From: Mycobacterium florentinum
Lineage (GTDB): Bacteria; Actinomycetota; Actinomycetes; Mycobacteriales; Mycobacteriaceae
Direction: 5' to 3'
NCBI RefSeq assembly: GCF_010730355.1
Contig: NZ_AP022576.1
Location: 3,472,001 to 3,536,000 of the forward strand
DNA: 64,000 nt
Part shown: one piece after another, positions 9,957-50,028 of the stretch
Numbering within the stretch: the first letter of the stretch is position 1
How the letters are laid out: each line of letters begins with the position of its first letter
Notes under the pieces: generated by a model
The model's input: the letters and a program-made list of their open reading frames with translations, nothing else
What the model was told of the DNA's origin: nothing
Database searches by the model: none
Translations under genes and position numbers: made by a program

Positions 9957-9982
9957 TGACACCATCAGTATTTATGGTGACA
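9957..9982. promoter_or_regulatory. Probable TetR operator
   Basis: CACCAT (9960-9965) and ATGGTG (9974-9979) form a perfect inverted repeat around 8 nt. The dyad extends to 9957-9982 with one mismatched pair. It sits in the divergent promoter region between the TetR and PPOX-family genes, in AT-rich sequence. Confidence 0.5.
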
Positions 9983-10037
9983 CTGTATCCATTATTTATA
10001 GCCGGGTCAATACCCCTGATAACAAAGGCATTTCGTC

Positions 10038-10592: not shown

Positions 10593-10593
10593 C

Positions 10594-11067: not shown

Positions 11068-11104
11068 GATGTCTCCTTCCACCTACCGGGCAGCGTAGCC
11101 CCGG

Positions 11105-12067: not shown

Positions 12068-12092
12068 CGCTTCCAGATCTACCAGCCATACA

Positions 12093-12111
12093 AAACCGGC
12101 ATGACTGGTTT
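12093..12111. promoter_or_regulatory. Possible LysR binding site
   Basis: AAACC and GGTTT flank 9 nt, giving a 19-bp interrupted dyad 26 bp upstream of the LysR start and about 107 bp upstream of the SDR start. The size and position are typical of the recognition half-sites of LysR regulators. Confidence 0.4.
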
Positions 12112-12217
12112 CCCGAATTGGTATTACCTCACGCCCCCGATCCGGTCATATCGTCGGCGATGTGGGCATGGCGCACCGATGCGATGCCGTGCGGGTCTGA
12201 CTGGGAGGTCGGCTTCA

Positions 12218-13093: not shown

Positions 13094-13097
13094 CACC

Positions 13098-14222: not shown

Positions 14223-14247
14223 AACGCCTACGAGCAAAGGACATTCG

Positions 14248-15312: not shown

Positions 15313-15321
15313 GAAGGACCG

Positions 15322-16143
15322 ATGAGCCAACTAATCCCAGGCAAGGTGGCACTGGTGACCGGCGCCGCACGCGGACAGGGCCGGGCGCACGCCGTGCGGC
15401 TGGCTGCCGAAGGTGCCGACGTCATCGCGGTGGATATCGCCGGCCCGTTGCCGTCGAGCGTTCCCTACGATTCGCCGACGCCCGACGACCTGGCGGAGAC
15501 CGCGCGGCTGGTCGGGGCCGGCGGGCGAAGGATTGTGACCGCGGCGGTCGATATTCGCGACCTCGACGCGCTGCGGGCCGCGGTCGACGAGGCCGTCGGC
15601 GAGCTGGGCCGCCTGGACGTCGTCGTCGCCAACGCCGGAATCTGCTGCCCGGCCCCGTGGGATCAAATCACGGCGCAGGCGTTTCGAGACACCATAGACA
15701 CCAACGTGATTGGCACCTGGAACACCGTGATGGCCGGTGCGCACCACATCATCGACGGCGGTCGCGGCGGGTCGATCATTCTGATCGGGTCCGCCGCCGG
15801 CATCAAGATGCAGTCGTTCATGATCCATTACACGGCAAGCAAACACGCCGTCGTCGGGATGGCGCGTGCGTTCGCCGCCGAGCTCGGCCGCTACAACATC
15901 CGCGTCAACAGCCTGAACCCGGGAGCGGTCGCCACCCCGATGGGCACCGGCCGGATGCGCGAGGCGCTGGAATCGGCAGCCGACGACTATCCGCATCTGC
16001 GCGGCCTGCACAAGCCGCTGCTGCCCGAGGGCATCGCGCAGCCCGAAGACATCTCCGACGCCGTCGCGTGGCTGGCCTCCGACCAATCCAGACTCGTTAC
16101 CGCAACCCAGGTTTCGGTCGACATCGGCGTCGGATACATCTGA
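15322..16143 (+). CDS. Mycofactocin-dependent SDR family oxidoreductase
   Basis: 273 residues. [12 protein letters not shown] is the cofactor loop, ANAG follows, and YTASK holds the catalytic Tyr and Lys. The extra segment after the second strand (DIAGPLPSSVPYDSPTPDDL) is characteristic of SDRs that keep NAD bound and pass electrons to mycofactocin. The expected role is oxidation of a secondary alcohol. No mycofactocin synthesis genes are visible in the window. It follows GGAAGG and overlaps the next SDR gene (TGATG). Confidence 0.88.
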   Translation: MSQLIPGKVALVTGAARGQGRAHAVRLAAEGADVIAVDIAGPLPSSVPYDSPTPDDLAETARLVGAGGRRIVTAAVDIRDLDALRAAVDEAVGELGRLDVVVANAGICCPAPWDQITAQAFRDTIDTNVIGTWNTVMAGAHHIIDGGRGGSIILIGSAAGIKMQSFMIHYTASKHAVVGMARAFAAELGRYNIRVNSLNPGAVATPMGTGRMREALESAADDYPHLRGLHKPLLPEGIAQPEDISDAVAWLASDQSRLVTATQVSVDIGVGYI

Positions 16144-16913
16144 TGCGCGGGCTGACGGACAAGACATTCCTGGTGGCCGGCGGCGCCACCGGGATCGGTG
16201 CCGCCACCGCCAAACGCCTTGCGGCCGAGGGCGCCCGGGTGGCCATCGGCGACATCAACATCGAGGGCGCCACCGCCGTTGCCGCACAGATCACCGACTC
16301 CGGCGGCCGAGCGATCGCGATCCAATTCGACCTTGCCGATGCGGGATCCGTGCAGGACCTCGTCGACTCAACCATCGGCGAATTCGGTGGTATTCACGGT
16401 CTGCACAACGTCGGCGCCGACCTCTCGGAAGCCAATCTCGGCCGCGACACCACGATTCTCGATACCGGCATGGACGTCTGGCGGCGCACGCTCGACGTCG
16501 ACCTGCTGGGCTACGTCCGAACGATCCAGGCGGTGCTGCCCCACTTGCTGGAGGGAGGCGGCGGCAGCATCGTGAACACTTCGTCGGGTGCCGCGCTGGG
16601 CAGCGACCCGCGGCACGTCGCCTACGGCGCCGCCAAGGCCGCCGTGAACCACCTGACCCGGCACGTCGCCGTCAACTGGGGCAAACACAACATCAGGAGC
16701 AACGGGGTGATGCCCGGCCTGGTGATGGGCGAGACCCAGGAACGGCAGAACGACGTCTCGCTGCAGCAGGCCTTCCTGATGTTCGGCAAGACCACCCGGC
16801 TGGGCAAACCCGACGACCTCGCCGCGGTGACGACTTTCCTGCTCTCCGAGGAGGCCGAGTGGATCACCGGTCAGGTGTGGTACATCGGCGGCGGATCGCA
16901 TTTGCGGCAATGA
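16143..16913 (+). CDS. SDR family oxidoreductase, last gene of the operon
   Basis: 256 residues, starting with ATG 16143, whose A is the last base of the previous stop codon. AGGATGIGAAT is the cofactor loop and YGAAK the catalytic Tyr-Lys. HNVG occupies the position of the usual NNAG. It ends in a typical GGGSHLRQ tail. It probably carries out a second redox step on the product of the neighbouring SDR, for example ketone or dihydrodiol oxidation. A weak stem-loop at 16925-16948 follows. Confidence 0.88.
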   Translation: MRGLTDKTFLVAGGATGIGAATAKRLAAEGARVAIGDINIEGATAVAAQITDSGGRAIAIQFDLADAGSVQDLVDSTIGEFGGIHGLHNVGADLSEANLGRDTTILDTGMDVWRRTLDVDLLGYVRTIQAVLPHLLEGGGGSIVNTSSGAALGSDPRHVAYGAAKAAVNHLTRHVAVNWGKHNIRSNGVMPGLVMGETQERQNDVSLQQAFLMFGKTTRLGKPDDLAAVTTFLLSEEAEWITGQVWYIGGGSHLRQ

Positions 16914-16924
16914 AGCTCAACTAG

Positions 16925-16948
16925 ACCTCGGCGGCACAATCGCGAGGT
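16925..16948. terminator. Weak inverted repeat after the SDR operon
   Basis: ACCTCG and CGAGGT are separated by 12 nt and lie between the last SDR gene and the next gene. There is no U-tract. It could help end the operon transcript or be part of the promoter of the following membrane-protein gene. Confidence 0.3.
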
Positions 16949-16961
16949 AAAGTCGCCCGCC

Positions 16962-18050
16962 ATGGGCGTCCTGCGCTTCGTCTGGCAACGCGTGTTGGCG
17001 TTCGACCGGATCGGCTCGCGGATTCCCCAGCTGATCCAGATATGGCTCACCGAGTTTTTCTTCGTGATGCCGTTGACCTTCTTCATTGGCAAAGTCATCG
17101 ATATTCGCGGGGCATTCGGCGTGCCGGGGACGGGCGAGCGGCTCGACGGGGTGTTCTGGGGCGCGCTGGTAGTCTCGTTGATCTTCGGCTTCTTCTTCGT
17201 GCGCTCGCTGGTCAAGCCCCGGGTGGTGGAGGGTTCGTGGACCCCGGTGGTGCACGCCGATATCGGGTCGATGACCGTCTACGGCGGCAACCGCGCATGG
17301 ACCGTGACCTATCCGTACCTGACCAGCCACCCGAGTTACGCACTGCTGCTGCTGATTACGGCGCCGATCCCGGCCGTGATGCTGGCCGCGACCACGAATC
17401 AGGGTGACAGCACGTTCTACTGGCGGGTGTCCGGGATCGTCGGCCTGATCATCCTCGCCTGCATGGCGCTGACCCGGATCTTGGCCTGGTACGTCTTTCG
17501 CCTGGGGCGCCGGAAGCTGGATGCGCGGCTGGAGGGATTGCCGATCTCGCAACGCCGGCTCGGCTGGGAGATCGCCTGGAAGCCGGTGCTCGTCCTGCTG
17601 GTGCTGATGTACGCGATCGTCTGCATCCCGTTGGGCGCCATGTGGTTCAAAGAGCAACGCAGGATCGCCGCGCTTCCGGTCGTGACCCTCGCCGACACGG
17701 CCCACCCGGGCGACTACCGGCGAGTCAGCGGCACGGTGGCATCCCCAGCCGTGTACTGGGCGCCGCGAGGCACCGGGCGCGGCGGCAACAATTACGCGGG
17801 TGCCGGGGTCCTGGTCACGCTGGCCTCGGGTGGTGAGGCGCTGCTACTCGCGGAATCGCTGTCGGTGCCCGACTTCAAGGGCATGATGGCCCGCGTCCAC
17901 GGGGGCGTCGGTCAAGGCCAGCTGACGGCCACCGGCAAGGTGATCGACGCGATCACCGCCGACCAGCGCAAGTACTACGGCTTCGATCCGAGCGCCTTTG
18001 CCGAGGCGCCGCCGGAGGGCCGGTTGATGCTGTTGCTGTCGCAGCCGTAG
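16962..18050 (+). CDS. Hypothetical membrane protein
   Basis: 362 residues. About five hydrophobic segments are visible (roughly 27-45, 67-87, 126-143, 149-172 and 205-227), then a soluble C-terminal domain of about 130 residues with SGTVASPAVYWAPRG and a glycine-rich stretch. I do not recognise the family. The C-terminal part resembles an OB-like extracytoplasmic domain in pattern only. It stands before the copper ATPase gene with 139 bp between, including that gene's own regulated promoter, so it is probably a separate unit. Confidence 0.7.
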   Translation: MGVLRFVWQRVLAFDRIGSRIPQLIQIWLTEFFFVMPLTFFIGKVIDIRGAFGVPGTGERLDGVFWGALVVSLIFGFFFVRSLVKPRVVEGSWTPVVHADIGSMTVYGGNRAWTVTYPYLTSHPSYALLLLITAPIPAVMLAATTNQGDSTFYWRVSGIVGLIILACMALTRILAWYVFRLGRRKLDARLEGLPISQRRLGWEIAWKPVLVLLVLMYAIVCIPLGAMWFKEQRRIAALPVVTLADTAHPGDYRRVSGTVASPAVYWAPRGTGRGGNNYAGAGVLVTLASGGEALLLAESLSVPDFKGMMARVHGGVGQGQLTATGKVIDAITADQRKYYGFDPSAFAEAPPEGRLMLLLSQP

Positions 18051-18113
18051 GCCTGGACGCCCCGCGCCCGACACCGCGTCGCGACCAGGCAGAATGGCGC
18101 GGGTCACACCGTC

Positions 18114-18142
18114 TTGACGTATATACCCCACAAGGGTATACA
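18114..18142 (+). promoter_or_regulatory. Promoter of the copper ATPase gene
   Basis: TTGACG (18114-18119) and TATACA (18137-18142) are spaced by 17 nt. The first copper-regulator box covers the spacer and the -10, so bound repressor would block RNA polymerase. Confidence 0.6.
18124..18138. promoter_or_regulatory. RicR/CsoR-type copper box 1
   Basis: An exact match to TACCC-N5-GGGTA, the palindrome described for the mycobacterial copper-responsive repressor RicR; the symmetry extends to TATACCC and GGGTATA. It overlaps the -10 element. Confidence 0.75.
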
Positions 18143-18159
18143 GAGGGTGAGAGCTTGAG

Positions 18160-18174
18160 TACCCCAATGGGGTA
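18160..18174. promoter_or_regulatory. RicR/CsoR-type copper box 2
   Basis: A second exact TACCC-N5-GGGTA match, 36 bp from the first (centre to centre) and just upstream of the GGAAGGAG ribosome site. Two boxes imply tight copper-dependent repression. Confidence 0.75.
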
Positions 18175-18189
18175 TTGGGAAGGAGCGCC

Positions 18190-20475
18190 ATGACCACGAG
18201 CGCCGGCAGCAACCTGGAGCTGGACATCACCGGCATGACGTGCGGCTCGTGCGCGGCGCGGTTGGAAAAGGCGCTGAACAAACTCGACGGCGTGACGGCG
18301 ACCGTGAACTTCGCCCTGGAGCGGGCGTCGGTCAGCGTCCCGGCGGGATACGACCCGCAGTTGGTCGTCGACGAGGTCGAAAGGGCCGGTTACACCGCTG
18401 TTTTGCCGCAACGGCACGCGGAACCCGCGGCGAGCGCCGACGACCGCGAGCTGGCGTCGCTGCGCAGTCGGCTGATTACGGCGGTGGTGCTCGCGACCCC
18501 GGTGCTCGCGATGGCGATGATCCCCGCGCTGCAGTTCCGCAACTGGCAGTGGGCATCGCTGGCCCTGGCCGCTCCCGTGGTGGTGTGGGCGGGCCAGCCC
18601 TTCCATGCCGCGGCCTGGGCCAACCTCAGGCACCGCGCCGCCACCATGGACACCCTGGTGTCGATCGGAACCCTCTCGGCGTTCCTGTGGTCGCTGTATG
18701 CCCTGTTCTTCGGGACCGCCGGCCATCCCCACCTGCACCACGGCTTCACGCTGACCTTGGCGCGGGCCACTGCGCCCAGCAGCGGCGCCGGCAACATCTA
18801 CCTCGAAGTGGCCGCCGGTGTCACCCTGTTCGTCCTGGCCGGCCGCTATTTCGAGACGCGCGCCAAGCGGCGGGCCGGGGCCGCGCTGCGCGCCCTGCTG
18901 GAGCTCGGTGCCAAGGACGTCGCGGTGCTGCGTCCCGACATCCTGCGCCCCGACATCGACGGCGTCGAGATCCGGATCCCCGTCGAACAGCTCAAGGTCG
19001 GCGACAAGTTCGTCGTGCGTCCCGGGGAGAAGATCGCGACCGACGGCATCGTCACGGCCGGGTCGTCGGCCGTGGACGCGTCGATGCTGACCGGCGAGTC
19101 CGTCCCGATCGAGATCGGCGAGGGCGACGCCGTCACCGGCGCCACCGTGAACGTGGGCGGACGTCTCGTGGTGCGCGCCACCCGGGTTGGCGCAGACACC
19201 CAGCTGGCGCAGATGGCCAAGCTGGTCGAGGCCGCGCAATCGGGCAAGGCCAAGGCCCAGCGGCTCGCCGACCGCGTCTCCGCAGTCTTCGTTCCGATCG
19301 TCATCGCCATCGCCGTGGCGACCCTGGCGACATGGCTTGTCGCCGGATTCCCGGTCGCCGCGGCGTTCACTGCCGCGGTCGCGGTGCTGATCATCGCGTG
19401 CCCGTGCGCACTGGGCCTGGCCACGCCGACCGCGCTGTTGGTCGGAACGGGCCGCGCGGCCCAGCTCGGCGTGCTGATCAAGGGACCCCAGGTGCTGGAG
19501 TCCACCCGCAAGGTCGACACCATCGTGCTCGACAAGACCGGCACCGTGACCACCGGCAAGATGACGCTGGTCGAGGTCGTCACCGCGCCCGACACCGACC
19601 GCGCCGCGCTGCTGCGCTACGCCGGTGCGCTGGAGGACGCCTCGGAACACCCGGTTGCCCAAGCGATTTCCAGGGCCGCCGCCGCCGAACTCGGTTCGCT
19701 GCCGGCACCCGAGGGCTTTACGAACGTGGAAGGCAAGGGCGTGCAAGGCGTTGTCGACGGCCACGCCGTGGTCGTCGGCCGCGAGAGCCTGCTGGCCGAT
19801 TGGTCGCAGTACCTGGACCCGACGTTGTCGGCCGCGAAAGACCGCGCCGAGAGCGAAGGCAAGACGGCCGTGGCGGTGGGCTGGGACGGCAGCGCCCGCG
19901 GGATCCTGGTGATCGCCGACACGGTCAAGCCGACCAGCGCCGAGGCGATCCGGCAGTTCAAGCAGCTTGGGCTGACGCCGGTCCTGTTGACCGGTGACAA
20001 CGCGATCGTGGCCGACCGCATCGCCGGCGAGCTCAGGATTGCGCACGTCATCTCCGAGGTGCTGCCCGCGGACAAGGTCGCCGTGGTTCAGCGTTTGCAG
20101 TCCGACGGCAAGGTCGTCGCGATGGTCGGCGACGGGGTCAACGACGCCGCCGCCCTGGCCACCGCCGATCTCGGCATCGCGATGGGCACCGGCACGGACG
20201 TCGCGATCGAGGCCGCCGACCTGACCCTGGTCCGCGGCGACCTGCGCGCTGCTGTCGACGCGATCCGGCTCTCCCGCAAGACGCTGGCCACGATCAAGAT
20301 GAACCTGTTCTGGGCGTTCGGATACAACGTGGCCGCGATCCCGCTGGCCGCGCTGGGCCTGCTGAACCCGATGCTCGCGGGTGCCGCGATGGCCTTTTCC
20401 AGCGTCTTTGTCGTCGGCAACAGCCTGCGACTGCGCTCCTTCGCGAGCACGATCCGTTCCGGCGATATGCGATAG
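18190..20475 (+). CDS. ctpV: Copper-translocating P1B-type ATPase, CtpV-like
   Basis: 761 residues. An N-terminal heavy-metal-binding domain has MTCGSC (17-21 region; Cys18 and Cys21). Eight membrane helices are expected. TGES is at 301-304, the metal-site CPC at 404-406, the phosphorylated DKTGT at 448-452, the SEHP motif around 486, and the hinge motif MVGDGVND near 650. This is the Cu(I)-export class; the closest named relative by pattern is mycobacterial CtpV. ATG 18190 follows GGAAGGAG. Unlike ctpV of M. tuberculosis it has no csoR gene beside it, so control by RicR/CsoR must come from elsewhere. Confidence 0.88.
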
Positions 20476-23741: not shown

Positions 23742-24935
23742 TCAGTCGGGAGTGCCTGCCGAAGCGGCAGCCAGGCGCTCATCGAGAGTGGCATGGAAGT
23801 GGCCGATCGCGCTCTCATGACGTCCAAACTCCACGAATTCGTTTGCACCGGACTGTAAGCCACGTTGTACCCCCGCCGACATCTCATTGTCTTCAACCAA
23901 ACCGCGCTCGATGAAGCTACCCGCGCCGACCAGCCTGTCGGTCGGACTGAGCGAGACCCGAGCGGCGACATCGGGCCTGACCATCGAATAGGTGGTGACC
24001 GTGCTGTGGCCGACGTCCACCGGGTCTATCACGACCACGGCGATTACGTCCGGAAACGTAGCCAACATGACGTTGGGGAACAGCTGATACAGATACGTCA
24101 CCCGGGCATCCGTCGTCCAGGTGCTTTCCGGGCGTCCGCGAAGCCGCTCAATGTTTTGGTACGGAAACGTGATTCGACTGTTCGGTCCGAATCTCTCGAC
24201 CACATTGAGATCGTCGTACTGCACCGGGAAAAAGGTGTCTTTGTGCGTCGAACGGATGTGATAGCCCTCCAGGAACTGCTCGGCCAGCACCTTCCAGTTC
24301 ATTGCTCGCAGCGTCGAGTCCACCAGGATGAGTCGCTCGGCCGGGACCAACTTGTCCCGCCACGGACTTCCGTCGGTCAGCCACGCCATCGCGTCGTCGG
24401 CGGACTCTTGCCGGCCCACGTCAGCGGAGTCGAGCGGACCGATGACGATCAGGCCATCGACTTCGCGGCTGGGGACCTCGACCAGACCGCGGGTGGACAC
24501 GTCCAAATCGGTGAATGCGTCGGAGTGCGGCACATGTGACAGCGAGCCGTCCAGACGATACGTCCAGCCGTGGTAGCGGCATACCAACGCGTGGGCGCAT
24601 CCGGCCGCCTCGACAAGGGCGAATCCCCGATGCCGACATGCATTGCGGAACACCCGGGCCCGCTGATCCCGCCCACGCACCGCGAACAGCGGCACGCCGA
24701 ATGCGATTCGTTCGACGTGATCGCCGGGGTTCGGGATGGTCGCAGCGGGAACGAAAACACTCGGCATCGAGCGTAACATCCGCAGTTCCGCCGCGAATCT
24801 GCCTGGATTCAAGTAGTTTTCGACCGGCTCGCGCCAACTCTCACCCTCGTCGGTGGTGCCGGCGTCGATATGCGCCAGGATGCGCCGAGCGATTTCCACG
24901 TCGTCTGCGACGAGCAGCCTGGTGGCGGAGCTCAT
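23742..24935 (-). CDS. Rieske-type aromatic ring-hydroxylating oxygenase, large subunit
   Basis: 397 residues from ATG 24935 (an upstream ATG at 24971 lies inside the divergent promoter). The Rieske [2Fe-2S] ligands are C100-x-H102 and C119-x2-H122, and the mononuclear iron ligands include His226 and His231 in EGYHIRSTH. Such enzymes hydroxylate aromatic or sterol-like rings or demethylate amines, and need separate ferredoxin and reductase partners; none is encoded nearby. The gene is divergent from a PaaX-like regulator that probably controls it. The ATG lies about 8 nt from a TGATAC -10-like element, so a leaderless transcript is possible. Confidence 0.88.
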   Translation of the reverse strand: MSSATRLLVADDVEIARRILAHIDAGTTDEGESWREPVENYLNPGRFAAELRMLRSMPSVFVPAATIPNPGDHVERIAFGVPLFAVRGRDQRARVFRNACRHRGFALVEAAGCAHALVCRYHGWTYRLDGSLSHVPHSDAFTDLDVSTRGLVEVPSREVDGLIVIGPLDSADVGRQESADDAMAWLTDGSPWRDKLVPAERLILVDSTLRAMNWKVLAEQFLEGYHIRSTHKDTFFPVQYDDLNVVERFGPNSRITFPYQNIERLRGRPESTWTTDARVTYLYQLFPNVMLATFPDVIAVVVIDPVDVGHSTVTTYSMVRPDVAARVSLSPTDRLVGAGSFIERGLVEDNEMSAGVQRGLQSGANEFVEFGRHESAIGHFHATLDERLAAASAGTPD

Positions 24936-24943
24936 GCCCGCCA

Positions 24944-24985
24944 GTATCACACTACGGACGTCACGCGTCAATCATTTGGTGATAC
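24944..24985. promoter_or_regulatory. Mirror-image GTATCAC/GTGATAC elements between Rieske and PaaX-like genes
   Basis: GTATCAC (24944-24950) and GTGATAC (24979-24985) face each other across 28 nt. Each could be a -10 (TGATAC) for the gene on its side, or together they may be an operator. ATCA-N5-TGAT (24971-24983) is a second small dyad. Confidence 0.45.
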
Positions 24986-28172: not shown

Positions 28173-28787
28173 TCAGCCCGTCGGGTTGTGCAGCATCCCG
28201 TCGATCAATCGGTGCAGCACCTGACGGGTCTCGCGGCGGGCCCGCTTCGGGTCGTCGGAGGTGGCGATCAGCATCGCCGCCTCGTCGAGCGCGCCGATCA
28301 GCACGTGCGCCAACGGTCGCAGCGGTTGGCGCGCCAGCTGGCCGGCCTTGATCGCCTCGGTGAGCATCTGCTCGGTCATCCCCAGGCTGTACCGCTGAGC
28401 GACATCGCGGAAGCCCGCCCAGCCCAGCACGCTCGGCGCGTCCAGCAGGATCAGCTGGCGCACCTCGGGATCACCGGAAACCTCGAGCCAGGCGTCGACG
28501 GCGGCGCGCAGCAAATCGGCCGGCGTCGTTGCCCCCGACGAGGCGACGATGGTCGCCATCCGGCCCATCACGTCCTGTTCCACCACCTCGACGACCTCTG
28601 CGAATAGCGCTGCCTTGTCGGCGAATTGGTGATACATCGCCCCGCGGGTGACGCCCGCGGCCGCGGCGATCTGCGGGGTGCCCACCTCCGCGTAGCCCCG
28701 TTCGCCCCATAGCCGGCGGGCAGCCGAGATCAGCGCGTCGCGGGTCGCCGCGGAGCGCTCTTCCTGAGTCCGTCTCTTGCTTTCCAT
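28173..28787 (-). CDS. TetR family regulator divergent from the alpha/beta hydrolase
   Basis: 204 residues. The DNA-binding domain is at 10-58 (ARRLWGERGYAEVGTPQIAA, then RGAMYHQFADKAALF). The C-terminal domain has the long helices typical of this family. A near-perfect 25-bp palindrome lies 17 bp upstream, in the 68-bp gap to the divergent hydrolase gene, so self-repression and control of that gene are likely. Confidence 0.88.
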   Translation of the reverse strand: MESKRRTQEERSAATRDALISAARRLWGERGYAEVGTPQIAAAAGVTRGAMYHQFADKAALFAEVVEVVEQDVMGRMATIVASSGATTPADLLRAAVDAWLEVSGDPEVRQLILLDAPSVLGWAGFRDVAQRYSLGMTEQMLTEAIKAGQLARQPLRPLAHVLIGALDEAAMLIATSDDPKRARRETRQVLHRLIDGMLHNPTG

Positions 28788-28803: not shown

Positions 28804-28828
28804 TTACGAACAGACAGCCTGTTTGTAA
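28804..28828. promoter_or_regulatory. TetR operator
   Basis: TTACGAACAG and CTGTTTGTAA are reverse complements with one mismatch, around ACAGC. The site lies between the divergent TetR and hydrolase genes. Confidence 0.7.
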
Positions 28829-30533: not shown

Positions 30534-31355
30534 ATGCGTGAGTTGGGCATCGAATTCATCAGCGTCTTCGGGCTACCGCCCGTCGAGTTCGTCCATCTGG
30601 CCGCCGACCTCGGCTGCCGATACATCTCCACCACGTTGGTCGGGCGTCCATTGGAATCCCTTGGCTATCCGGCATTCTCGCTCAAGCAGGATGTGCGGCT
30701 GCGGCGCGACCTGCGCACGGCGCTTCACGAGCGCGGCGTCAGCATCTCGCTGGGCGAGGGCATGGTGATCATGCCGGGCGCCGACGTGTCGGAGTTGGCC
30801 GGCGACCTGGACGTCCTGGCTGAATTGGGTACCGCGGCGATCAACACCCTGAGCTTCGACAAAGACCGCGGCCGCACGTTCGACCAACTGGCCACGCTGA
30901 CCACCATGGCCGCCGCGCGCGGCATCGCGACGTCGATCGAGATGGCGCCCGGGCTGACCATCGGAGACCTGCCCGCGGTGCGGGCCGCCATCGAGCACGT
31001 GGGCGGCGCCGGCGTGCGTGCGACGGTGGACACGATGCACTGGGGACGCTCCGGCTACGGCGCCGCCGAGCTACGCGAACTGGGGGCCGAGCGCATCGGC
31101 TACTTACAGCTCAGCGACACCACGCGGGAACCGCGCACGACAACGTCCTATCTGAAGGAAGCCATGTACGAGCGGATGCCTCCGGGCGCCGGGGAGCTGG
31201 CACTTGCCGACATGCTCGAAGCGGTGCCGACCGATGTGGTGGTCGGGCTGGAGATTCCGATGCGTGCCCTGGCCGAGTCCGGCGTCGGACCCATGGAACG
31301 CCTGCGGCCCTGTGTGACGGCGGCGCGTGAATTACTGGACAGTTCGACCGGCTAA
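30534..31355 (+). CDS. Sugar phosphate isomerase/epimerase-like TIM-barrel protein
   Basis: 273 residues of the AP-endonuclease-2/xylose-isomerase-like barrel superfamily. Acidic and His residues at strand ends (SIEMAPG, TVDTMHWG, YLQLSDTT, VGLEIPM) are where the metal ligands sit in this family. Such proteins isomerise or epimerise sugars or inositol derivatives, or act as dehydratases. It follows the SDR gene closely; the fadD-like gene downstream has its own regulated promoter. Confidence 0.75.
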   Translation: MRELGIEFISVFGLPPVEFVHLAADLGCRYISTTLVGRPLESLGYPAFSLKQDVRLRRDLRTALHERGVSISLGEGMVIMPGADVSELAGDLDVLAELGTAAINTLSFDKDRGRTFDQLATLTTMAAARGIATSIEMAPGLTIGDLPAVRAAIEHVGGAGVRATVDTMHWGRSGYGAAELRELGAERIGYLQLSDTTREPRTTTSYLKEAMYERMPPGAGELALADMLEAVPTDVVVGLEIPMRALAESGVGPMERLRPCVTAARELLDSSTG

Positions 31356-31356
31356 G

Positions 31357-31380
31357 ATAAGACGGACCGTCTCGTCTCGT
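31357..31380. promoter_or_regulatory. 24-bp operator of the fadD-like gene (shared with the fadE operon)
   Basis: Half-sites ATAAGACGG and TCGTCTCGT flank ACCGTC; the inner AGACGG-A-CCGTCT is a perfect dyad. The site starts within a TAAGAT -10-like element (31353-31358) and is 21/24 identical to the palindrome at 49906-49929, so the same TetR probably binds both. Confidence 0.7.
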
Positions 31381-33634: not shown

Positions 33635-34051
33635 CTACTTCGGACTGGTGAAATAGGGCAGCGTGACGTCCGGGCCGACGACATGGAACTGCACCCGCAC
33701 CCGCATCCCGATCGCCAACTCTTCGGGCGCCACCCCGACGACGTTGGTGAGCATCTGATAGCCCTCGTCCAGCGTGATGATGGCGGGCGCGTAGGGCGGT
33801 TCGAACTCCGGCGTGACGGGTCGGTAAACCACTGTCCAGCTGTAGATCTCGCCGGCCCCGGCGCTCTTGATCCACTGCAATTCGGCCGACAGGCATTGGC
33901 GGCAGTGCTCGGTCGGCGGGAAGTTGGCCCGACCGCACGCATCGCAGCGCTGGTAACGCAGCTCCTCTGCTTGACAACCCTGCCAGAACGGCACGCTGAG
34001 GTGACTGCTTGCGTGCGGCAGCGGACCGGTCTGCGGTTGCAACGCGGTCAT
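33635..34051 (-). CDS. DUF35 OB-fold protein with zinc ribbon (Ltp/thiolase partner)
   Basis: 138 residues. A rubredoxin-like zinc ribbon (C-x2-C, 10 residues, C-x2-C in RCDACG and HCRQC) is followed by an OB-fold domain (from about 62). DUF35 proteins, such as the DUF35 part of ChsH2, pair with Ltp-type thiolase-like proteins and are needed for their aldolase activity. Its ATG overlaps the stop of the thiolase-like gene (ATGA), which supports a fixed 1:1 complex. Confidence 0.88.
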   Translation of the reverse strand: MTALQPQTGPLPHASSHLSVPFWQGCQAEELRYQRCDACGRANFPPTEHCRQCLSAELQWIKSAGAGEIYSWTVVYRPVTPEFEPPYAPAIITLDEGYQMLTNVVGVAPEELAIGMRVRVQFHVVGPDVTLPYFTSPK

Positions 34052-35208
34052 CGTGGCTCATCCCCGACGATCAGCACCGTGGTGAACAAGGCACCCGCTC
34101 CGCCGTTGCTGCAGAACGCAATATGCGCGTCGGGTACCTGCAGCGCACCCGCTTGGCCGCGCAACTGCTGGACGGCCCGAACGGCGCGCTGCATCATCTG
34201 CGGATTGGCACCGGCATGACTGAAGGACATCGTTCCCCCATCGGTGGTGATCGGATGACTGCCGCCGATCGCGATGTGGCCGTCGGCGACGAACGGTCCG
34301 CCTTCGCCCTCGCCGCAGAAGCCGAAAGCCTCGAGCTGACGGATGATTTCGAACGAGAACGGGTCATAGAGTTCCAGCACGTCGACGTCGTCGGGCCGAA
34401 TTCCCGCGTGGCGGAACGCACCTTCGGCCGCGCGTCGGCCGACGACACCGTTCACGTGATCACCGCGGCGGCCGGCGAGGTCCCAGGCCGGTGGGTGCTG
34501 ATAGGACGGGCCATGGAAGTCCGCGCCGCTGCCCAGCACGTAGACCGGCCGGCTGGCGACATCGACCTTGTCGACGTTCGCCACCACCAGTGCGCAGCCG
34601 CCTTCGGAGGTGGTCGCACAATCGAGCAGGTGAAACGGGTCCGCGATCGGACGGGACGCGGTGATGTCGTCGGGTGTGAACGGACCCCGTTGGTAGTAAA
34701 CGGCTTCGGGGTTCTGGGAGCCGTTGTTACGGATGGTCGCCGCCACGATGGACAGCTGTTCGCGCGTGGTGCCGTAGACGTGCATGTGCCGCCGGGCGAT
34801 CAGCGCGAACTCGGCGGTGGTGAACATTCCCCACGGCGCCACGAATTCGTTCTCGGGCCTGGTCCACGGCGCCGTGGCCTCGTGGTCGCGGTACTCGCCG
34901 GCCTGGGCGGCGACCAGGACCACGACGTCGGCCATGCCGTGCTCGATCGCGGTGACCGCCTCGGTGATCATGCCGACCCCGAAGGCCAGGCCCTGCCACG
35001 CCGGGCCGATCCGCAGGTCGTAGATCAACGAGGTCGAGTTCGGGCTCGCGCTGATGCCGTCGACGTCGTCGAGGCTCAGCCCGGCGTCGTCGAGTGCGCC
35101 CAGGATCGCCTTGATCGCCAGCCCGCGCGAGGTCTCGCCGTCCAGGCGCCGGCCCTGCCGGGTGTTGTGCACCCCGACGATCGCGGCGGTTCGTTTCGTC
35201 GCGCTCAC
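34048..35208 (-). CDS. Ltp2-like thiolase-fold lipid-transfer protein/aldolase
   Basis: 386 residues with the thiolase fold, GTG start. The nucleophilic cysteine of true thiolases is absent from the helix where it should be (AFGVGMITEAVTAI). ELYDPFSFEI holds the Tyr that corresponds to the catalytic region of Ltp2-type retro-aldolases. With the DUF35 partner translated from an overlapping gene, the likely reaction is cleavage of a beta-hydroxyacyl-CoA with a tertiary alcohol, as in steroid side-chain degradation. The substrate is not known. Confidence 0.85.
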   Translation of the reverse strand: MSATKRTAAIVGVHNTRQGRRLDGETSRGLAIKAILGALDDAGLSLDDVDGISASPNSTSLIYDLRIGPAWQGLAFGVGMITEAVTAIEHGMADVVVLVAAQAGEYRDHEATAPWTRPENEFVAPWGMFTTAEFALIARRHMHVYGTTREQLSIVAATIRNNGSQNPEAVYYQRGPFTPDDITASRPIADPFHLLDCATTSEGGCALVVANVDKVDVASRPVYVLGSGADFHGPSYQHPPAWDLAGRRGDHVNGVVGRRAAEGAFRHAGIRPDDVDVLELYDPFSFEIIRQLEAFGFCGEGEGGPFVADGHIAIGGSHPITTDGGTMSFSHAGANPQMMQRAVRAVQQLRGQAGALQVPDAHIAFCSNGGAGALFTTVLIVGDEPR

Positions 35209-35563: not shown

Positions 35564-37909
35564 TCACAACCCTGCCGGCCGCACGCTCGTTGCGCCCGCC
35601 GCGCGCAATTCCGCCAGCTCTTCTTCGCTGTGGCCCAGCACGCCGGCCAGCACTTCGCTGGTGTGCTGCCCGTACAACGGTGCCCCGTGCCGGATCCACC
35701 GCCTGGGCTTGCCAAGGAACGTGAAAGGCATTCCGACACAACGGAACGAGCCGGCGACGGGATGATCGACCGTTTCCCAGAATCCGCGGGCGAGCAATTG
35801 AGGGTCGCTCAGCAGCGCGGCGGCCTCCGTGACCCGCGCCGCGGGCACCTGCGCGGCGCGCAGCACGGCGACCGCGTCGCCCACCGGGCGTCGCGCGGTC
35901 CAGTCCGAGAGCAGCTTGTCGATCTCGTCCGCGCGCTCCCGCCACCCGGCCTCCTCGTTTCCGAGTTCGGGCTTGTCGATGAGCGCGGCCAGACCGGCGC
36001 GTGCGACATCGCTCGTCGCGGCGAGTGCGACCCATTCGTCGTCGCCCTGGCAGCGATACACGCCCTGCGGAGCCGCGCCGGGGCCCCGATTTCCCTCTCG
36101 GCGCATCTGGATTCCGTTGCGGGAGTGTTCGAGCAGCATTTCAGCGGCGACATTGAGCGCCGACTCCACCATCGTGGACTCGACATGCATGCCGGTCCCG
36201 TCCCGGTCGCGGATCACCAGCGCCGCGACGGCCGCGAAGGCGGCGTGCAACCCGGCGATCGGGTCGCACACGCCGCGCGGAATCACCGGCGGCCCGTCGG
36301 CATGCCCGGTCATCCACGCCATGCCGGTAGCCTGCTCCATCGTCTGTGCGAACCCGACGCGGTCGCGCCACGGGCCGTCGAGGCCGAACGCCGGCATCCG
36401 GACCATGACGGCGCGCGGATTGGCCGCGTGCACCGAATCCCATTGCAGGCCGAAGTTTTCCATCACTCTCGGGGAGAAGTTCTCGATGACCAGATCACTC
36501 GCGGCGATGAGCTCCAGCGCCAACGCCCGGCCGGCGTCGGTGCTCAGCTCGACGCTGATGCCGCGTTTGTTGTTGTTGCTGCACAAGAAGACTGGGCCCC
36601 ACTCCCACCACTGGTCCCAGTCGGGTGGGCGGCCCGCGGAGAACCGCATGCCATCGGCGCGGCGAACACCCTCGAGCTTGATCACGTCCGCGCCCAGCGT
36701 ACCGAGGAATTGGGTGGCGACCGGCCCGGCCCAAAACGCGGTGAAATCGGTGATCCGGATGTCGGACAACGGAAGTGTGCTCGCTTCAGCGAGATTGGGA
36801 CGGGCGGGGCGAGGCGGCCAATGCACCCGGCCGTTGTCGGCGCCCAGCAGCGGAGGCAGCCCGGGCGGGCGGGTCGCGATGGCGTCGCTGCGATACGGCA
36901 CCCTCGGCTGCAGCACCCCGATCTCGGATTGGACGAACACGCCCCGCTCCACGAAGTGATCGACCATCGGCAGTGTGGCGGGGGAGCCGATGGGCGCCAC
37001 GGGGATGCGGAATGCCACCGCGAGATCGACGATCTCCTGCGTGGTCCGGGTCTGGGTCCACTGCGTCACCATGTCGAGGAACTCGTCGCGGCGCTCGACT
37101 CGACCGACAAACGATGCCAGCTCGGCGTCATCGACCAGCTCCGCGCGATCGATCATGATCAGAAAATCCTGGAACTGCTGCGCGGTGATCGTGCAGAAGC
37201 CAACATTGCCGTCGGCCGTGGGGACGATCGACGGCAGTTCCAGGCTGCGTTGGTGCAGCAGGGAATCCGCGCCCAGGACGCTGGCCGACATGGCGGACAG
37301 CCCGCCCATCGCGATCGCCATGGCCTCATACGTCGAGACGTCGATGACTTCGCCGCGGCCACCCCGGGTGGCGTGCCGGGCCGCGGCGGCCGCGACCGGG
37401 GCGGCGAACGAAGCCGCCAACCACTCCCCCAGCCGGCCGCCCGCCTGGACCGGTTCGTCGCCCGGCCAGCCGCGGCCGGAGATCGAGCCACACAACGCTT
37501 GCAGGATGAACTCGTTGGCGACCAGTTGGTCGTCGACGTAGGGGCCCGTCGTGCCGAACGGTGTCACGGCGACCACAACCGCCGACCAGCCGGTGTGCGC
37601 CGTGATGTCGTCGAGTGTCCATCCGTCGGTCAGGTCGGTGAGCACCACGTCGGCGCCGGCCAACAGCGCCGTGACCTCGGCGTCGTCGTGACCCACCACC
37701 GATTTCTTGCCCGCCGCCAGGTAGCCGAACAGCGCCCCCGGCTCGCCACCGGCCGACCAGCCGCGCATCGAATCACCCTGCGGGGATTCGACTTTCACCA
37801 CGTCGGCGCCGGCGTCGGCGAACATCTTGGCGCAGTAGGACACCGCGATCCCGTTGGACAGCTCCAGCACACGCCAGTCGGCGAACGGTGCCTGGGCCGC
37901 CACGCTCAA
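35564..37909 (-). CDS. Fused tandem class III CoA-transferase (CaiB/BaiF type)
   Basis: 781 residues, twice the family's usual ~390: two CaiB/BaiF domains in one chain (about 1-365 and 375-781). Each shows the ADVVKVE / ADVIKLE strand near its start. In the second half the region CDPIAGLHAA carries the expected catalytic Asp; in the first half the equivalent stretch is GRLGEWLAA and the Asp is missing, so perhaps only one half forms the aspartyl-CoA intermediate. The enzyme would move CoA between acids. The TTG at 37909 overlaps the amidohydrolase stop (TTGA); GTG 37903 is an alternative. Confidence 0.85.
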   Translation of the reverse strand: MSVAAQAPFADWRVLELSNGIAVSYCAKMFADAGADVVKVESPQGDSMRGWSAGGEPGALFGYLAAGKKSVVGHDDAEVTALLAGADVVLTDLTDGWTLDDITAHTGWSAVVVAVTPFGTTGPYVDDQLVANEFILQALCGSISGRGWPGDEPVQAGGRLGEWLAASFAAPVAAAAARHATRGGRGEVIDVSTYEAMAIAMGGLSAMSASVLGADSLLHQRSLELPSIVPTADGNVGFCTITAQQFQDFLIMIDRAELVDDAELASFVGRVERRDEFLDMVTQWTQTRTTQEIVDLAVAFRIPVAPIGSPATLPMVDHFVERGVFVQSEIGVLQPRVPYRSDAIATRPPGLPPLLGADNGRVHWPPRPARPNLAEASTLPLSDIRITDFTAFWAGPVATQFLGTLGADVIKLEGVRRADGMRFSAGRPPDWDQWWEWGPVFLCSNNNKRGISVELSTDAGRALALELIAASDLVIENFSPRVMENFGLQWDSVHAANPRAVMVRMPAFGLDGPWRDRVGFAQTMEQATGMAWMTGHADGPPVIPRGVCDPIAGLHAAFAAVAALVIRDRDGTGMHVESTMVESALNVAAEMLLEHSRNGIQMRREGNRGPGAAPQGVYRCQGDDEWVALAATSDVARAGLAALIDKPELGNEEAGWRERADEIDKLLSDWTARRPVGDAVAVLRAAQVPAARVTEAAALLSDPQLLARGFWETVDHPVAGSFRCVGMPFTFLGKPRRWIRHGAPLYGQHTSEVLAGVLGHSEEELAELRAAGATSVRPAGL

Positions 37910-39255
37910 TTGCCCAGCGTGGTAGCGCGGCCGGCGATGCCGGCCACCTCGGCCGTCACCGGCGTGGCGTCGCGCTGTTGCAGAGCGAACTGCGTCATCC
38001 GCGTCCACGCGTCACGGTCGCGCTGGCTGGCCTGGCGGCCGACGTGGGTGACCACGTCCACATCCGTCGCCTGCGCGCGCAGCTGGCCGGCCCGGGCATG
38101 CTCCTTCGGTATGTACCGGAACGGGTCGAAAGAGTATGCGGCCATCGCATTTTCGTGGGTGATCTTGTTGATGACCGCATCGTCGAGGTGACCCATCGTC
38201 TCGATGATGTCCTCGGGCGCAAACGGCCAGTTGCTGTCAGAATGCGGGAAGTCGGATTCCCAGCACAGCATGTCCTCGTTGAACCAATCCATGTTGCGCA
38301 CACCGACTTTGTCGCTGATGAAGCAGGTGTAGAAGTGCCGCCTGAACACGTCGCTGGGCCCTTCGTAGCCCGGCGGGAAGGTCGCCAGCGTCCAGCCCGA
38401 GTGACGGTTGTAGACATGCTCGGCCCGCCATAGGAAGTACGGGATCCAGCCGACATCGCCCTCGGTAAGCGAGAACTTCAGTTGCGGGAAGTCTGCCCAG
38501 AACTCGGCCCAGATCAGCTCGGTGAAGGTGAACATGCTCATCATCGACGAGGCCGTCATCTGCACACTGGGCGGAGCGTCCGTCGACACCTGCGGGGATC
38601 GGGACGCGGAGCCGACGTGCGTGCACAGCACCGTTTTGTTCTCGCAGACCGCCTCGAACAACGGATACCAGTACTTGGTGTGAATACTGGGCATTTGCAA
38701 CGCTTCTGGGTTCTCCGAGAATGTCACCGCGTGACATCCCTTGTCCGCCAGGCGCTTGACCTCCTTGGCCGCCTCGGCGACGTCGTACAAAGGCAGGATT
38801 CCGCACGGGATGAAGCGCCCCGGATAGGCCGCGCACCATTCGTCGACGTGCCAGTCGTTGTAGGCCTTGATCATCACCAAGTTGACGTCGCGGTCGGGGC
38901 CCTGGTTGAGAACCTGCCCGGAGAACCCGGTGAAATTCGGGAAGTTCAAACCCGCCAGCTGACCGCCGGCGTTCATGTCACGCACCCGCTCGTCGACGTT
39001 GAAGCAGCCCGGCCGCATCTCGTCGTAGCGTGAGGCGTCGATGTTGTACATCTCGCGGGGCTTGCCGGCGACGGCGTTCAGGCCCATGTTCCGCCCGCGC
39101 ACCTGGCCGTAATACCACTGCTGGACGCCGTCGGGCTCCATGACCACCCGCGGCGCGAGCTCTTTGTACTTCGCCGGAACATGCGCGTCGAACATGTCCG
39201 CCGGCTCGGCGATGTGATCGTCCACGCTGATCAGGATCAGATCGTCTTTATTCAT
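37906..39255 (-). CDS. Amidohydrolase-2 family protein, first gene of the operon
   Basis: 449 residues of the metal-dependent amidohydrolase-2 family (decarboxylase/hydrolase barrels). DDHIAEP near the start is the H-x-x-E-P metal motif, CTHVGS provides another His, and the ESDFPHSD segment near 360 has the conserved Asp. In mycobacteria such proteins occur in steroid and lipid catabolic clusters. ATG follows GAGGAG. It opens the six-gene reverse-strand operon ending in PadR and is divergent from the LacI gene. Confidence 0.88.
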   Translation of the reverse strand: MNKDDLILISVDDHIAEPADMFDAHVPAKYKELAPRVVMEPDGVQQWYYGQVRGRNMGLNAVAGKPREMYNIDASRYDEMRPGCFNVDERVRDMNAGGQLAGLNFPNFTGFSGQVLNQGPDRDVNLVMIKAYNDWHVDEWCAAYPGRFIPCGILPLYDVAEAAKEVKRLADKGCHAVTFSENPEALQMPSIHTKYWYPLFEAVCENKTVLCTHVGSASRSPQVSTDAPPSVQMTASSMMSMFTFTELIWAEFWADFPQLKFSLTEGDVGWIPYFLWRAEHVYNRHSGWTLATFPPGYEGPSDVFRRHFYTCFISDKVGVRNMDWFNEDMLCWESDFPHSDSNWPFAPEDIIETMGHLDDAVINKITHENAMAAYSFDPFRYIPKEHARAGQLRAQATDVDVVTHVGRQASQRDRDAWTRMTQFALQQRDATPVTAEVAGIAGRATTLGN

Positions 39256-47617: not shown

Positions 47618-49843
47618 TTACTTGCGCGGCAGGCCGAGAATCATCTGCGCGATGATGTTCAGCTGAATCTCCCGCGTTCCGCCGCCGATCAGTTCGGCGG
47701 GCAGATGCAGATAGGGCGCCACGACAGCGGGTTCGGAGTCGGTGACCATGACCGTCTGTCCGGTCAGGCGCAGCGTAGCCTCGAATGTACGGCGCAGCAA
47801 CACATTCATCGCCACCTTCGCGATGCTCGACGCCGGACCGGATGCCTGACCATCCAGCAGCCGTATGGTTTCACGCACGCCGAGTGCCCGGATCGCGTTG
47901 GCGTAAGCGTCCAGTTCGCCCAGCGCCCGCTCGGCGTCGTCGCGCTCGGGGCCGGGCTCGGCCGCCAACTGCCGCAGCGCAACAGCACGGTCGAACTTGA
48001 CGTATCCGCTGATGGCGGAACGCTCTTCGGCCATCGTGGCGATAGCGAGGCTCCAGCCGTCGGTAGGACCGCCGAGCAGCATGTCGTCGGGGACGAATAC
48101 GTCGTTGAGGAAGACCTCGTTGAAATGCGCTTCCCCGGTCGCCGTCTTGATCGGCTGGACCTCCACCCCCGGCGATCGCATGTCGAGGATGAAATACCCG
48201 ATCCCGCGGTGCTTGCCGGCCTCGGGGTCGGTGCGCGCCAGCAGCGCGCCCAGGTCGGCGTACTGCGCCAACGACGTCCAGATCTTGTGGCCGTTGATCC
48301 GCCAACCGCCGTCGACCTTGGTCGCCCGGGTGGCCAGCGACGCGAGGTCGGAGCCCGCTCCCGGCTCACTGAACAGCTGGCACCAATGAATGTCGCCACG
48401 CTGCGTCGCCGGAATCAGACTCTCCTGCAGCTCTTTTGGCGCCGCGGCCAGGACCGAGGGCAGGATCCACTCGGCGATGTTCAGCGACGGCCGGACCAGC
48501 CCGGGCCGCTTGGCGAACTCCTCGTCGATGATGAGCTGCTTGAGGGGACCGGCATCGACGCCCCACGGCGCCGGCCAATGCGGCGCCATCAGACCGGCGT
48601 CCGCGATCAACGTGCGCTGCGGCCCCATGGCCTGGTCCTCGTAGTCGCCGTGCGGTGCGGGTCTGTCGTTGCGCAGCTGCTGGGCGGCATCCAGCGTCTC
48701 GGCGACCCAGGACCGGAACTCCGACTCGGCGTCGCCCAGATTGACCGACATGTCGCGCTGCTGGGCGCAGCCCAGCTGTCCCAGCAGCCGGGCCCAGCGA
48801 CTGGCCGGACCGATCGATCCCGCCAGGCTGATGGCCCGGCGCCAATACAGGTGCACGTCGTGTTCCCAGGTGAAACCGATGGCGCCGAGCATCGTCAGCG
48901 CGTCGAGCACCAGGTCCGGTGCCGGTGCGATCGCGATCGTCGCGGCTCCGGCCGCCGCGAGCCGATGCTGGTCGGTCGACTCGTCCGCGGCGCGCACCGC
49001 GTCCCAGGCCGCCGCGGTGGCCAACTCGCTGTTGACCAAGAGCATGGCCGCGCTGTGCTGCAGCGCCTGGAAAGTCCCGATCACCTTGCCGAACTGTTCG
49101 CGGGTGCGCAGGTGCGCGGTGACGACGTCGACGCACCACTGGGTGATACCGGCCGTCGTGCTGGCGACCAGACCCACAACGACGCATGCCGCGCGATCGT
49201 CGTCGATTCCGCTCAGAACGTCGGACTGGCCGGCGTGATAGTCGTCGAGCCGCAGCACCCCGACGTCGACGACGAGATCCGTTCCGGGCGCGGATTCGAC
49301 TGTCGCAGTGGGCTGTTCGGTGTCCACCGCCACCCAGACCGTCTCGCCACCGTCGGTGCGGGCACCGACCAGGATCACCCGTGCCGCACATACGCCGGCG
49401 GTGACCTTGGAGCTCCCGGTGACCAGCCAGCCCGGACCGTCGGCGCGGGCCCGGAAATCCGCGTCGCCGGACAGCACGACAGCGGCGGGTGCGCCCGAAG
49501 CAAGATCGCGGATCAGCGATTCGGTGGCGGGTGTCGGATCTGCCAGCAGCGCGACGGCTCCCGTGATCACGGTCGGGAGCAGCGGGCCGGGCAGCAGCGA
49601 CTTGCCCGCCGATTCCAGCACGCACGCCGCATCGATCAGCCGCCCGCCCTGACCGCCGAGGTCTTCGGGCAGGTGAACGGCGTGAAAGCCGTTGGCCACC
49701 AACGTATCCCACCACTCGGGTAGCCGACCAGCCGCCAGGGCGTCGAAATTGTCTCGGGTGGCGGCGATCGGGGCGTGCCGGCCGGCGAACTGGCCGACGG
49801 CGGTGCTGAGATCCTGCTGCTCGGGAGTCAGTCCCAGGGTCAT
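47618..49843 (-). CDS. Fused double acyl-CoA dehydrogenase (FadE34-like)
   Basis: 741 residues, two acyl-CoA dehydrogenase domains in one chain (about 1-345 and 360-741), as in mycobacterial FadE34 and its relatives. The second domain has the FAD-binding WCQLFSEPGAGSDLA and the C-terminal GGGTREIQLNIIAQ; the first keeps REQFGKVIGTFQALQH. It introduces an alpha,beta double bond into a bulky acyl-CoA, probably a sterol- or bile-acid-like chain. I chose ATG 49843 (MTLGLTPEQQ), the family-like start; the upstream frame runs through the operator. It is divergent from TetR and co-transcribed with the thiolase and DUF35 genes. Confidence 0.9.
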   Translation of the reverse strand: MTLGLTPEQQDLSTAVGQFAGRHAPIAATRDNFDALAAGRLPEWWDTLVANGFHAVHLPEDLGGQGGRLIDAACVLESAGKSLLPGPLLPTVITGAVALLADPTPATESLIRDLASGAPAAVVLSGDADFRARADGPGWLVTGSSKVTAGVCAARVILVGARTDGGETVWVAVDTEQPTATVESAPGTDLVVDVGVLRLDDYHAGQSDVLSGIDDDRAACVVVGLVASTTAGITQWCVDVVTAHLRTREQFGKVIGTFQALQHSAAMLLVNSELATAAAWDAVRAADESTDQHRLAAAGAATIAIAPAPDLVLDALTMLGAIGFTWEHDVHLYWRRAISLAGSIGPASRWARLLGQLGCAQQRDMSVNLGDAESEFRSWVAETLDAAQQLRNDRPAPHGDYEDQAMGPQRTLIADAGLMAPHWPAPWGVDAGPLKQLIIDEEFAKRPGLVRPSLNIAEWILPSVLAAAPKELQESLIPATQRGDIHWCQLFSEPGAGSDLASLATRATKVDGGWRINGHKIWTSLAQYADLGALLARTDPEAGKHRGIGYFILDMRSPGVEVQPIKTATGEAHFNEVFLNDVFVPDDMLLGGPTDGWSLAIATMAEERSAISGYVKFDRAVALRQLAAEPGPERDDAERALGELDAYANAIRALGVRETIRLLDGQASGPASSIAKVAMNVLLRRTFEATLRLTGQTVMVTDSEPAVVAPYLHLPAELIGGGTREIQLNIIAQMILGLPRK

Positions 49844-49905
49844 GATCGCGGCCGCATAGTGGCGAACATGGGTTTCGGCCGCACCGGCTGATATCCTTTC
49901 GTCTG

Positions 49906-49929
49906 ACAAGACGAACCGTCTCGTCTTGT
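49906..49929. promoter_or_regulatory. 24-bp operator of the fadE operon
   Basis: ACAAGACGA and TCGTCTTGT are perfect reverse complements around ACCGTC. It lies between the divergent fadE and TetR genes and matches the site at 31357-31380 at 21 of 24 positions. Confidence 0.75.
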
Positions 49930-50028
49930 GGAAGATTACCGGGGCCGGTCGAGGTCTGTAAAGCGACCCCGGGGCCCCGCGGCCAGCGGCGAGGACGGCG
50001 AAGGGGCCTGACACACGAGGATCACCAG

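Follow-up and report, generated by a model that had tools for sequence, protein, structure and literature searches.

The window, i.e. the whole stretch of 64,000 nt that was analysed, contains two copies of a 24-bp operator (Table 1). One copy precedes a gene encoding a FadD1-type acyl-CoA ligase. The other is located in the 185-bp gap (49844-50028) between the divergent genes fadE and tetR, and the fadE gene is followed by the genes for an aldolase and a DUF35 protein. The fadE-like gene most likely starts at the ATG at position 49843 and not at an upstream TTG; this reading has 742 aa including the stop letter, i.e. 741 residues.

Table 1. Operators, promoter-like elements and genes of the two regions in the window
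Feature	Coordinates	Strand	Remarks
-10-like element TAAGAT (TANNNT), fadD promoter	31353..31358	+	TAA at 31353-31355 is the stop codon of the preceding gene
Operator copy 1	31357..31380	+	ATAAGACGGACCGTCTCGTCTCGT; core 31360-31377 AGACGGACCGTCTCGTCT; 23 bp upstream of the fadD1 start codon
FadD1-type acyl-CoA ligase, 527 aa	31401..32984	+	NCBIfam NF009927, 1007.8 bits (above the cut-off of 800)
Stand-alone DUF35/OB-fold protein, putative aldolase partner, 137 aa	45967..46380	-	PF01796 only; no zf-ChsH2
Sal-type steroid aldolase, 402 aa	46387..47595	-	YDCY at residues 300-303; 9MYR, E 5e-134
Acyl-CoA dehydrogenase, two fused ACAD units	47618..49843	-	Domain matches; fused-ACAD precedent CasC
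Operator copy 2	49906..49929	+	ACAAGACGAACCGTCTCGTCTTGT; core 49909-49926 AGACGAACCGTCTCGTCT; between fadE and tetR
-10-like element TAATCT	49933..49938	-	Promoter of the leftward fadE-sal-DUF35 operon; operator core follows after 6 bp; TANNNT in 63/64 distinct sequences
-35-like element TTTACA	49957..49962	-	Same leftward fadE promoter; 18 bp from the -10
TetR-family regulator, Ms6564 ortholog, 194 aa	50029..50613	+	PF00440; PDB 4JKZ/4JL3, E about 1e-70

Direct reading confirmed the original prediction that the two copies, separated by 18.5 kb, are identical at 21 of 24 positions and that the fadE-side copy has perfect 9-bp arms, which flank a 6-bp spacer. When the combined 24-mer pattern was used with up to three mismatches, just these two places were found in the window and none in 100 shuffles. 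The 18-bp core AGACGNNNCGTCTCGTCT was also searched in the complete genome, a single contig of 6.22 Mb. It occurs at two places without a mismatch and at none with one mismatch. Two mismatches yielded 17 rows, three of which are the same two sites in other registers. The totals at up to three mismatches were 87+92 versus 88+106 for the reversed-pattern control, i.e. there was no excess, and further weaker targets in this genome were therefore rejected. Taken together, two perfect places, none at one mismatch and weaker matches at the level of the control show that the likeness of the pair is not due to chance and that the strict regulon consists of two operators. A random occurrence of the motif throughout the genome was not seen. 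The shared operator is thus real.

A single palindrome turned out not to be the best description of the operator, and this model was dropped in favour of half-sites, AGACG/CGTCT, after loci of the Mycolicibacterium type had been compared. In these relatives, the operator spans 23 bp and conforms perfectly or almost perfectly to the palindrome AGACGAGACG-NNN-CGTCTCGTCT; its four half-sites represent two overlapping palindromes shifted by 5 bp. The copies in the window have three good half-sites of the four. Such a layout would be compatible with two dimers at opposite faces of the DNA, by analogy with Ms6564, for which a dimer-of-dimers on 31-bp DNA is described (PMC4150764). Decaying copies of the system were observed in M. 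lepraemurium (L082), which has retained two perfect operator cores next to broken or partial matches for fadD1, the aldolase and DUF35, and in M. genavense (L067), which has an interrupted aldolase match and an operator with two mismatches.

Each operator is located just downstream of a -10-like element and covers the predicted start point, which is the usual position of a repressor and would block initiation. TANNNT is a form of the mycobacterial -10. At the fadE side, 54 of 64 distinct sequences have a TTTACA-type/TANNNT pair with a spacing of 17 or 18 bp directly adjacent to the operator. At the fadD side, TANNNT directly precedes the operator at all 28 sites (the window, 26 other genomes and locus L073). 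Generic sigma-70 scans predicted no promoter at either operator; the TTTACA -35 is below their threshold. The positions of the sites suggest that the TetR encoded at 50029 would act as a repressor.

This TetR has a TetR_N DNA-binding domain and is similar over its full length to 4JL3, the complex of Ms6564 with DNA (PMC4150764); 4JKZ was also taken to be Ms6564 because its sequence is nearly identical to that of 4JL3. The identity to Ms6564 of M. smegmatis is 68% over the aligned length, and the recognition-helix segment is the same. This segment, GVGKQTIYRWW, is present in 71 of the 74 homologs read, some strains being counted twice. At an E value of 1e-40, 172 of 396 genomes of the genus have an ortholog, each with one match, and 224 have none. 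Within the window genome, the second-ranking protein has 37% identity.

The presence of the motif follows that of the ortholog. With at most one mismatch, it was found in 82 of 85 genomes with the ortholog versus 16 of 113 without (n=198 genus genomes; Fisher p 6e-35, uncorrected for kinship). The three remaining ortholog genomes (G076, G085 and G140) all have sites with one or two mismatches to the core. In all 73 genomes for which both positions were listed, the motif precedes tetR by no more than 400 bp; this number leaves out nine ortholog genomes without a listed TetR position. The original prediction had named this TetR as the likely regulator of a small regulon that is joined by a common operator, and both claims are supported by the co-occurrence and by the conserved footprints. 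Very probably, one repressor-type TetR controls both switches and thereby a small set of enzymes, apparently for the shortening of a steroid side chain.

Nine of the 16 motif genomes without the ortholog were inspected, namely G116, five genomes with a related TetR and three without a TetR match. In G116 (L185), the operon is present and tetR is cut by the contig end. In G050, G088, G092, G169 and G190, a TetR of 32-41% identity is encoded about 95 bp from the motif. In G060, G182 and G183, no TetR match was found in the 5.7-8.5 kb that were examined. The reversed control pattern had 25 hits in the 198 genomes, and therefore leftover motif places in genomes without the ortholog are expected by chance. 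At one locus of a genome without the ortholog (L187, 4105-4122), a motif of the same class is flanked by a methyltransferase gene and the gene for a TetR of 38% identity, and thus the operator type appears to be common to related TetRs. We also inspected 40 TetR loci of non-mycobacterial actinobacteria (35-47% identical, found via peptides including the recognition helix, and counted without a shuffled control). In the stretch of about 320 bp that precedes the start of the match, 25 of these loci have the core with at most one mismatch and 31 with at most two, i.e. 15 have no operator at one mismatch and nine have none at two. At L104, L105, L106 and L108, the divergent neighbour encodes an FMN oxidoreductase in three cases and a short-chain dehydrogenase in one, and several loci (L104-L144) have two tandem operator copies, e.g. 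L115, L117 and L137. Judged from these sequence comparisons, this type of operator predates the ortholog. As it is common to related TetRs, the regulator cannot be identified from the motif alone; the motif could be used to predict the targets of other actinobacterial TetRs.

Two separate motif places are present in 28 genomes. In 27 of them, including the window genome, the second site directly precedes a linked fadD1, which in the 26 other genomes is 83-94% identical to that of the window. The second place in G138 (one mismatch; L183) has no cluster genes beside it and was treated as a chance match outside the 27; a third place in G103 (one mismatch; L174) has no adjoining cluster genes and was treated likewise. 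When the upstream regions of the 27 two-site genomes and of locus L073 were aligned (n=28), CGCTAnnATAAGACGGACCGTCTCGTCTCG was nearly invariant and the flanks varied between species, i.e. conservation is confined to a footprint of about 30 bp, outside of which the flanks are unrelated. The start codon follows 21-38 bp after the core. Among 58 ortholog genomes without a second site, 57 encode a fadD1 homolog elsewhere in the genome (best 63-79% identical), which in several cases shares the contig with tetR at a distance of some 60-80 kb. The core was absent, at up to two mismatches, before the fadD1 homologs at all 58 loci of these 57 genomes. The M. smegmatis-like genome G077 also has no second operator at fadD1. 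Among the genomes scanned, the fadD site is thus found only where the fadD gene is linked to the system, which looks like a clean case of regulon growth.

Further genes are encoded downstream of fadD1. A second Ltp/DUF35 pair (33635-35208) converges on fadD1 and is conserved with it; its DUF35 protein keeps the zinc ribbon, its Ltp has no YDCY, and no operator of this type was found at the pair. An 814-aa protein (35564-38008) has class III CoA-transferase matches in two stretches (PF02515) and is apparently a fused double CoA-transferase.

The fadE product has matches to IpdE2-like and pimC-like proteins in its two halves. In the 805-aa reading, the N domain (70-162) and the best stretch of the C domain (289-401), which is matched in two stretches, are located in the first half, and the M domain (552-646) in the second. 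The best solved-structure match of the Ltp-like protein is 9MYR, Sal of C. testosteroni. Tyr302 and Cys304 (YDCY), Gln161, Gln347 and Gln352 of Sal are all present in the aligned protein of the window, and YDCY was found in 33 of 33 full-length aldolase relatives read; four apparent Sal homologs without YDCY were rejected as cross-hits to the other Ltp gene (28-30% identity). Both proteins contain DLGGAS (Gly88-Gly89 in CtSal), i.e. Gly and no nucleophilic thiolase Cys, and these glycines presumably occupy the place of that Cys. The original prediction had assigned cleavage to an Ltp-like/DUF35 thiolase. By its catalytic residues, the supposed thiolase is a Sal-type aldolase. Zinc ligands were not found in the DUF35 protein; in all 35 relatives that were read, residues 1-55 contain no Cys. 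The protein has lost every cysteine of the zinc ribbon, in contrast to ChsH2 (C4) and Shy (C3H1).

At 40 named mycobacterial TetR loci, matches to FadE, an Ltp-type protein and DUF35 were found at 36, to FadE alone at three, and to FadE and Ltp at one; the Ltp matches may include the other Ltp gene. A Sal homolog (E 1e-170) is present in 79 of 85 TetR genomes, the exceptions being G042, G065, G079, G123, G165 and G195. Conversely, 41 of 120 genomes with a Sal homolog have no TetR, a group that includes 71-79% identical homologs, which may not be orthologs. Five of the 41 have a motif match, namely G116 and, with one mismatch and far from Sal or on another contig, G055, G112, G121 and G183. At L083 (8890-9891) and other Mycolicibacterium-type loci, an extended short-chain dehydrogenase similar to HpnA/3beta-HSD is the first gene between operator and fadE; its HpnA score is 242 bits, compared to a cut-off of 367.65. 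In G077 (L191), this gene is followed by those for the aldolase and DUF35, and no fadE match was found within 19 kb.

CasC is described in PMC8399759 as a fusion of two ACAD units that is active on C5 side chains. Because of the Sal-type catalytic residues and the CasC-like fused dehydrogenase, the regulon was read as one for aldolytic cleavage of a C5 steroid side chain. Aldolytic cleavage releases a free aldehyde and requires a second ATP-dependent CoA activation, which is performed by StdA2 or CasI on C3 side chains, as described in PMC8399759. It therefore makes chemical sense that a Sal-type aldolase and a CasI-like ligase would be regulated together. The original prediction had FadD perform the first acyl activation; as the presumed thiolase is a Sal-type aldolase, it is more likely that FadD1 acts after the cleavage and re-activates the freed C22 acid. 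It had also regarded the set as complete except for a hydratase, and this missing enzyme need not be part of the regulon. ChsH3 of M. tuberculosis has been used to hydrate C5 side chains in vitro.

From the sites, their conservation, the identity of the ortholog and the catalytic residues, which can be read directly, we infer the following scheme of binding, repression, ligand and substrate. The TetR would bind both 24-bp sites as two dimers on overlapping AGACG...CGTCT half-sites, by analogy with Ms6564, and would repress the divergent fadE-sal aldolase-DUF35 operon, tetR itself and fadD1 18.5 kb away, as the bound protein would cover the predicted start point and block transcription initiation. 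A ligand, most simply a steroid acyl-CoA or a C22 intermediate, would release it. The fused dehydrogenase would then introduce a double bond into a CoA-esterified steroid side chain of five carbons, water would be added by a hydratase whose gene lies elsewhere, and the Sal-type aldolase with its DUF35 partner would cut C22-C23 to yield acetyl-CoA and the free aldehyde. The aldehyde would be oxidised, and the CasI-like FadD1 would re-attach CoA to the three-carbon side chain. We consider this scheme, i.e. repression of both units via the two sites and an aldolytic steroid side-chain route, to be likely as a whole. Arguments to the contrary are the broader role published for Ms6564, the genomes that have Sal and no TetR or the reverse, the absence of a KstR-type site from the window, and the negative sigma-70 scans. 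If it is true, the operator could serve as a sensor element for steroid side-chain intermediates.

The steroid assignment is less certain than the regulon itself. It is possible, though rather unlikely in our judgement, that the regulon is real and degrades another branched acyl chain, e.g. of a polyketide, a hopanoid or a methyl-branched lipid. FadD1 is below the cut-off for the steroid-22-oyl-CoA synthetase CasI (NF052587, 524.3 bits versus 900; FadD17 scores 610 versus 850), so that its substrate can only be guessed. CtSal prefers the bent rings of bile acids, with an efficiency about 260-fold above that on a cholesterol-type ring (PMC12329534), and together with the DUF35 partner without zinc ligands this means that the substrate may be no bile acid or sterol at all. 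The HpnA/3beta-HSD-like dehydrogenase added in Mycolicibacterium-type genomes also favours another chain, as does the result that no steroid ring gene was named among the window genes scanned, in a scan that covered 1-20000 only in part. What speaks for a steroid is the close match to a characterised steroid aldolase including its catalytic set, and the CasC-like architecture of the fused dehydrogenase. A Rieske-type ring-hydroxylating oxygenase (PF00848, PF00355) is encoded at 23742-24971; it received no NCBIfam name at E 1e-20.

Two further alternatives concern the regulator. The fadD1 site could belong to another protein, e.g. the TetR_C_41 protein encoded at 28173-28787, and its likeness to the fadE-side copy would then reflect a TetR-type motif that related proteins have in common, as in the five genomes without the ortholog and at 25 of the 40 non-mycobacterial loci. 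In most stretches read, the TetR_C_41 gene is indeed part of the same conserved block as fadD1. We nevertheless regard this as very improbable. All 27 genomes in which a perfect fadD1 site was detected encode the Ms6564 ortholog as well, and no site of this type was found, at up to two mismatches, at the 29 TetR loci that rank next by similarity in the window genome; in the 26 of these that were readable, the recognition helix differs from the YRWW type. TetR_C_41 is an unlikely candidate also because the tetR-side operator recurs at loci without a TetR_C_41 match in the stretch examined, and the gap before its gene contains an inverted repeat of another sequence. This repeat, TTACGAACAG...CTGTTTGTAA (28804-28828), is located between the TetR_C_41 gene and a hydrolase gene and is possibly the operator of TetR_C_41 itself. 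The TetR at 50029 could, on the other hand, be a broad regulator, with the two sites being merely the strongest of many. This is what has been claimed for Ms6564, which is called a master regulator that makes contacts via water molecules and scans generic sequence (PMC4150764) and is reported as an activator (PMC4895335, PMC12455991), namely of DNA-repair genes (PMC12455991). Single places with one mismatch outside the operon in G077 and G273 would fit. However, many target promoters were not seen with the motif at up to three mismatches in the window genome and up to two in eight relatives including G077, where matches beyond the operon and fadD1 sites were not above the reversed control; looser binding may escape such a scan. 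Furthermore, the lack of an ortholog in 224 of 396 genomes would be odd for a master regulator. Broad regulation thus appears improbable, and a local repressor is the more likely reading of these sequences.

KstR and KstR2 exert TetR-family control of mycobacterial steroid catabolism. The pattern TNNAACNNGTTNNA, which we take to be the KstR-type palindrome, has no match in the window, and a link to KstR was rejected on this basis. The KstR model NF033703 yields 27.4 bits for the TetR at 50029, far below the cut-off of 280. Both results agree with the original prediction that the motif is not of the KstR type. The regulon appears to differ from those of KstR and KstR2 in the motif, for which the search covered the KstR pattern, and in the TetR family member.

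With the Sal-Shy complex of Comamonas testosteroni (9MYR), in which Sal is the C5 side-chain aldolase (PMC12329534), the system shares the catalytic residues and a DUF35 protein, a putative partner that is encoded next to Sal in the window. Unlike Shy, this DUF35 is a separate small protein without a MaoC hydratase domain and without zinc ligands, and the window Sal, unlike its counterpart, is part of an operon predicted to be controlled by a TetR. The Cas cholate cluster of Rhodococcus jostii RHA1 (CasC, CasG, CasI) has in common with the window the fused C5 acyl-CoA dehydrogenase and a CasI-related ligase. According to PMC8399759, RHA1 uses the thiolase CasB and has no Sal. In contrast, the window has a Sal-type aldolase and a different regulator.

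The comparison with Ms6564 (MSMEG_6564) is the point of surprise, as the regulon is otherwise ordinary in kind. The aldolase paper on M. smegmatis reportedly names MSMEG_6561, three numbers from MSMEG_6564. The operator before its own gene is common to the window TetR and the TetR of G077, a protein that is 91% identical to Ms6564. Ms6564 has been published as a master regulator and DNA-repair activator, whereas the sites found here point to a local regulon of one or two operators placed for repression, and the function reported for Ms6564 is unrelated to its genomic neighbours. The passages on Ms6564 that were examined contained no link to steroid catabolism; the original Ms6564 papers were outside this search. 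We give about even chances to the more far-reaching proposal that the Ms6564 family is no master regulator and would be a dedicated repressor of the mycobacterial aldolytic steroid side-chain route, and that in one species group, including the window genome, a distant CoA ligase acquired another operator joined to a minimal -10 promoter, which would supply the re-activation step that the aldolase, unlike a thiolase, needs. If true, the master-regulator role of Ms6564 would need re-examination at native protein levels. The window offers a precise and checkable regulon that comprises one regulator, two operators and four proteins, either enzymes or their partners; for the ortholog of this TetR, a DNA-bound structure has been solved.
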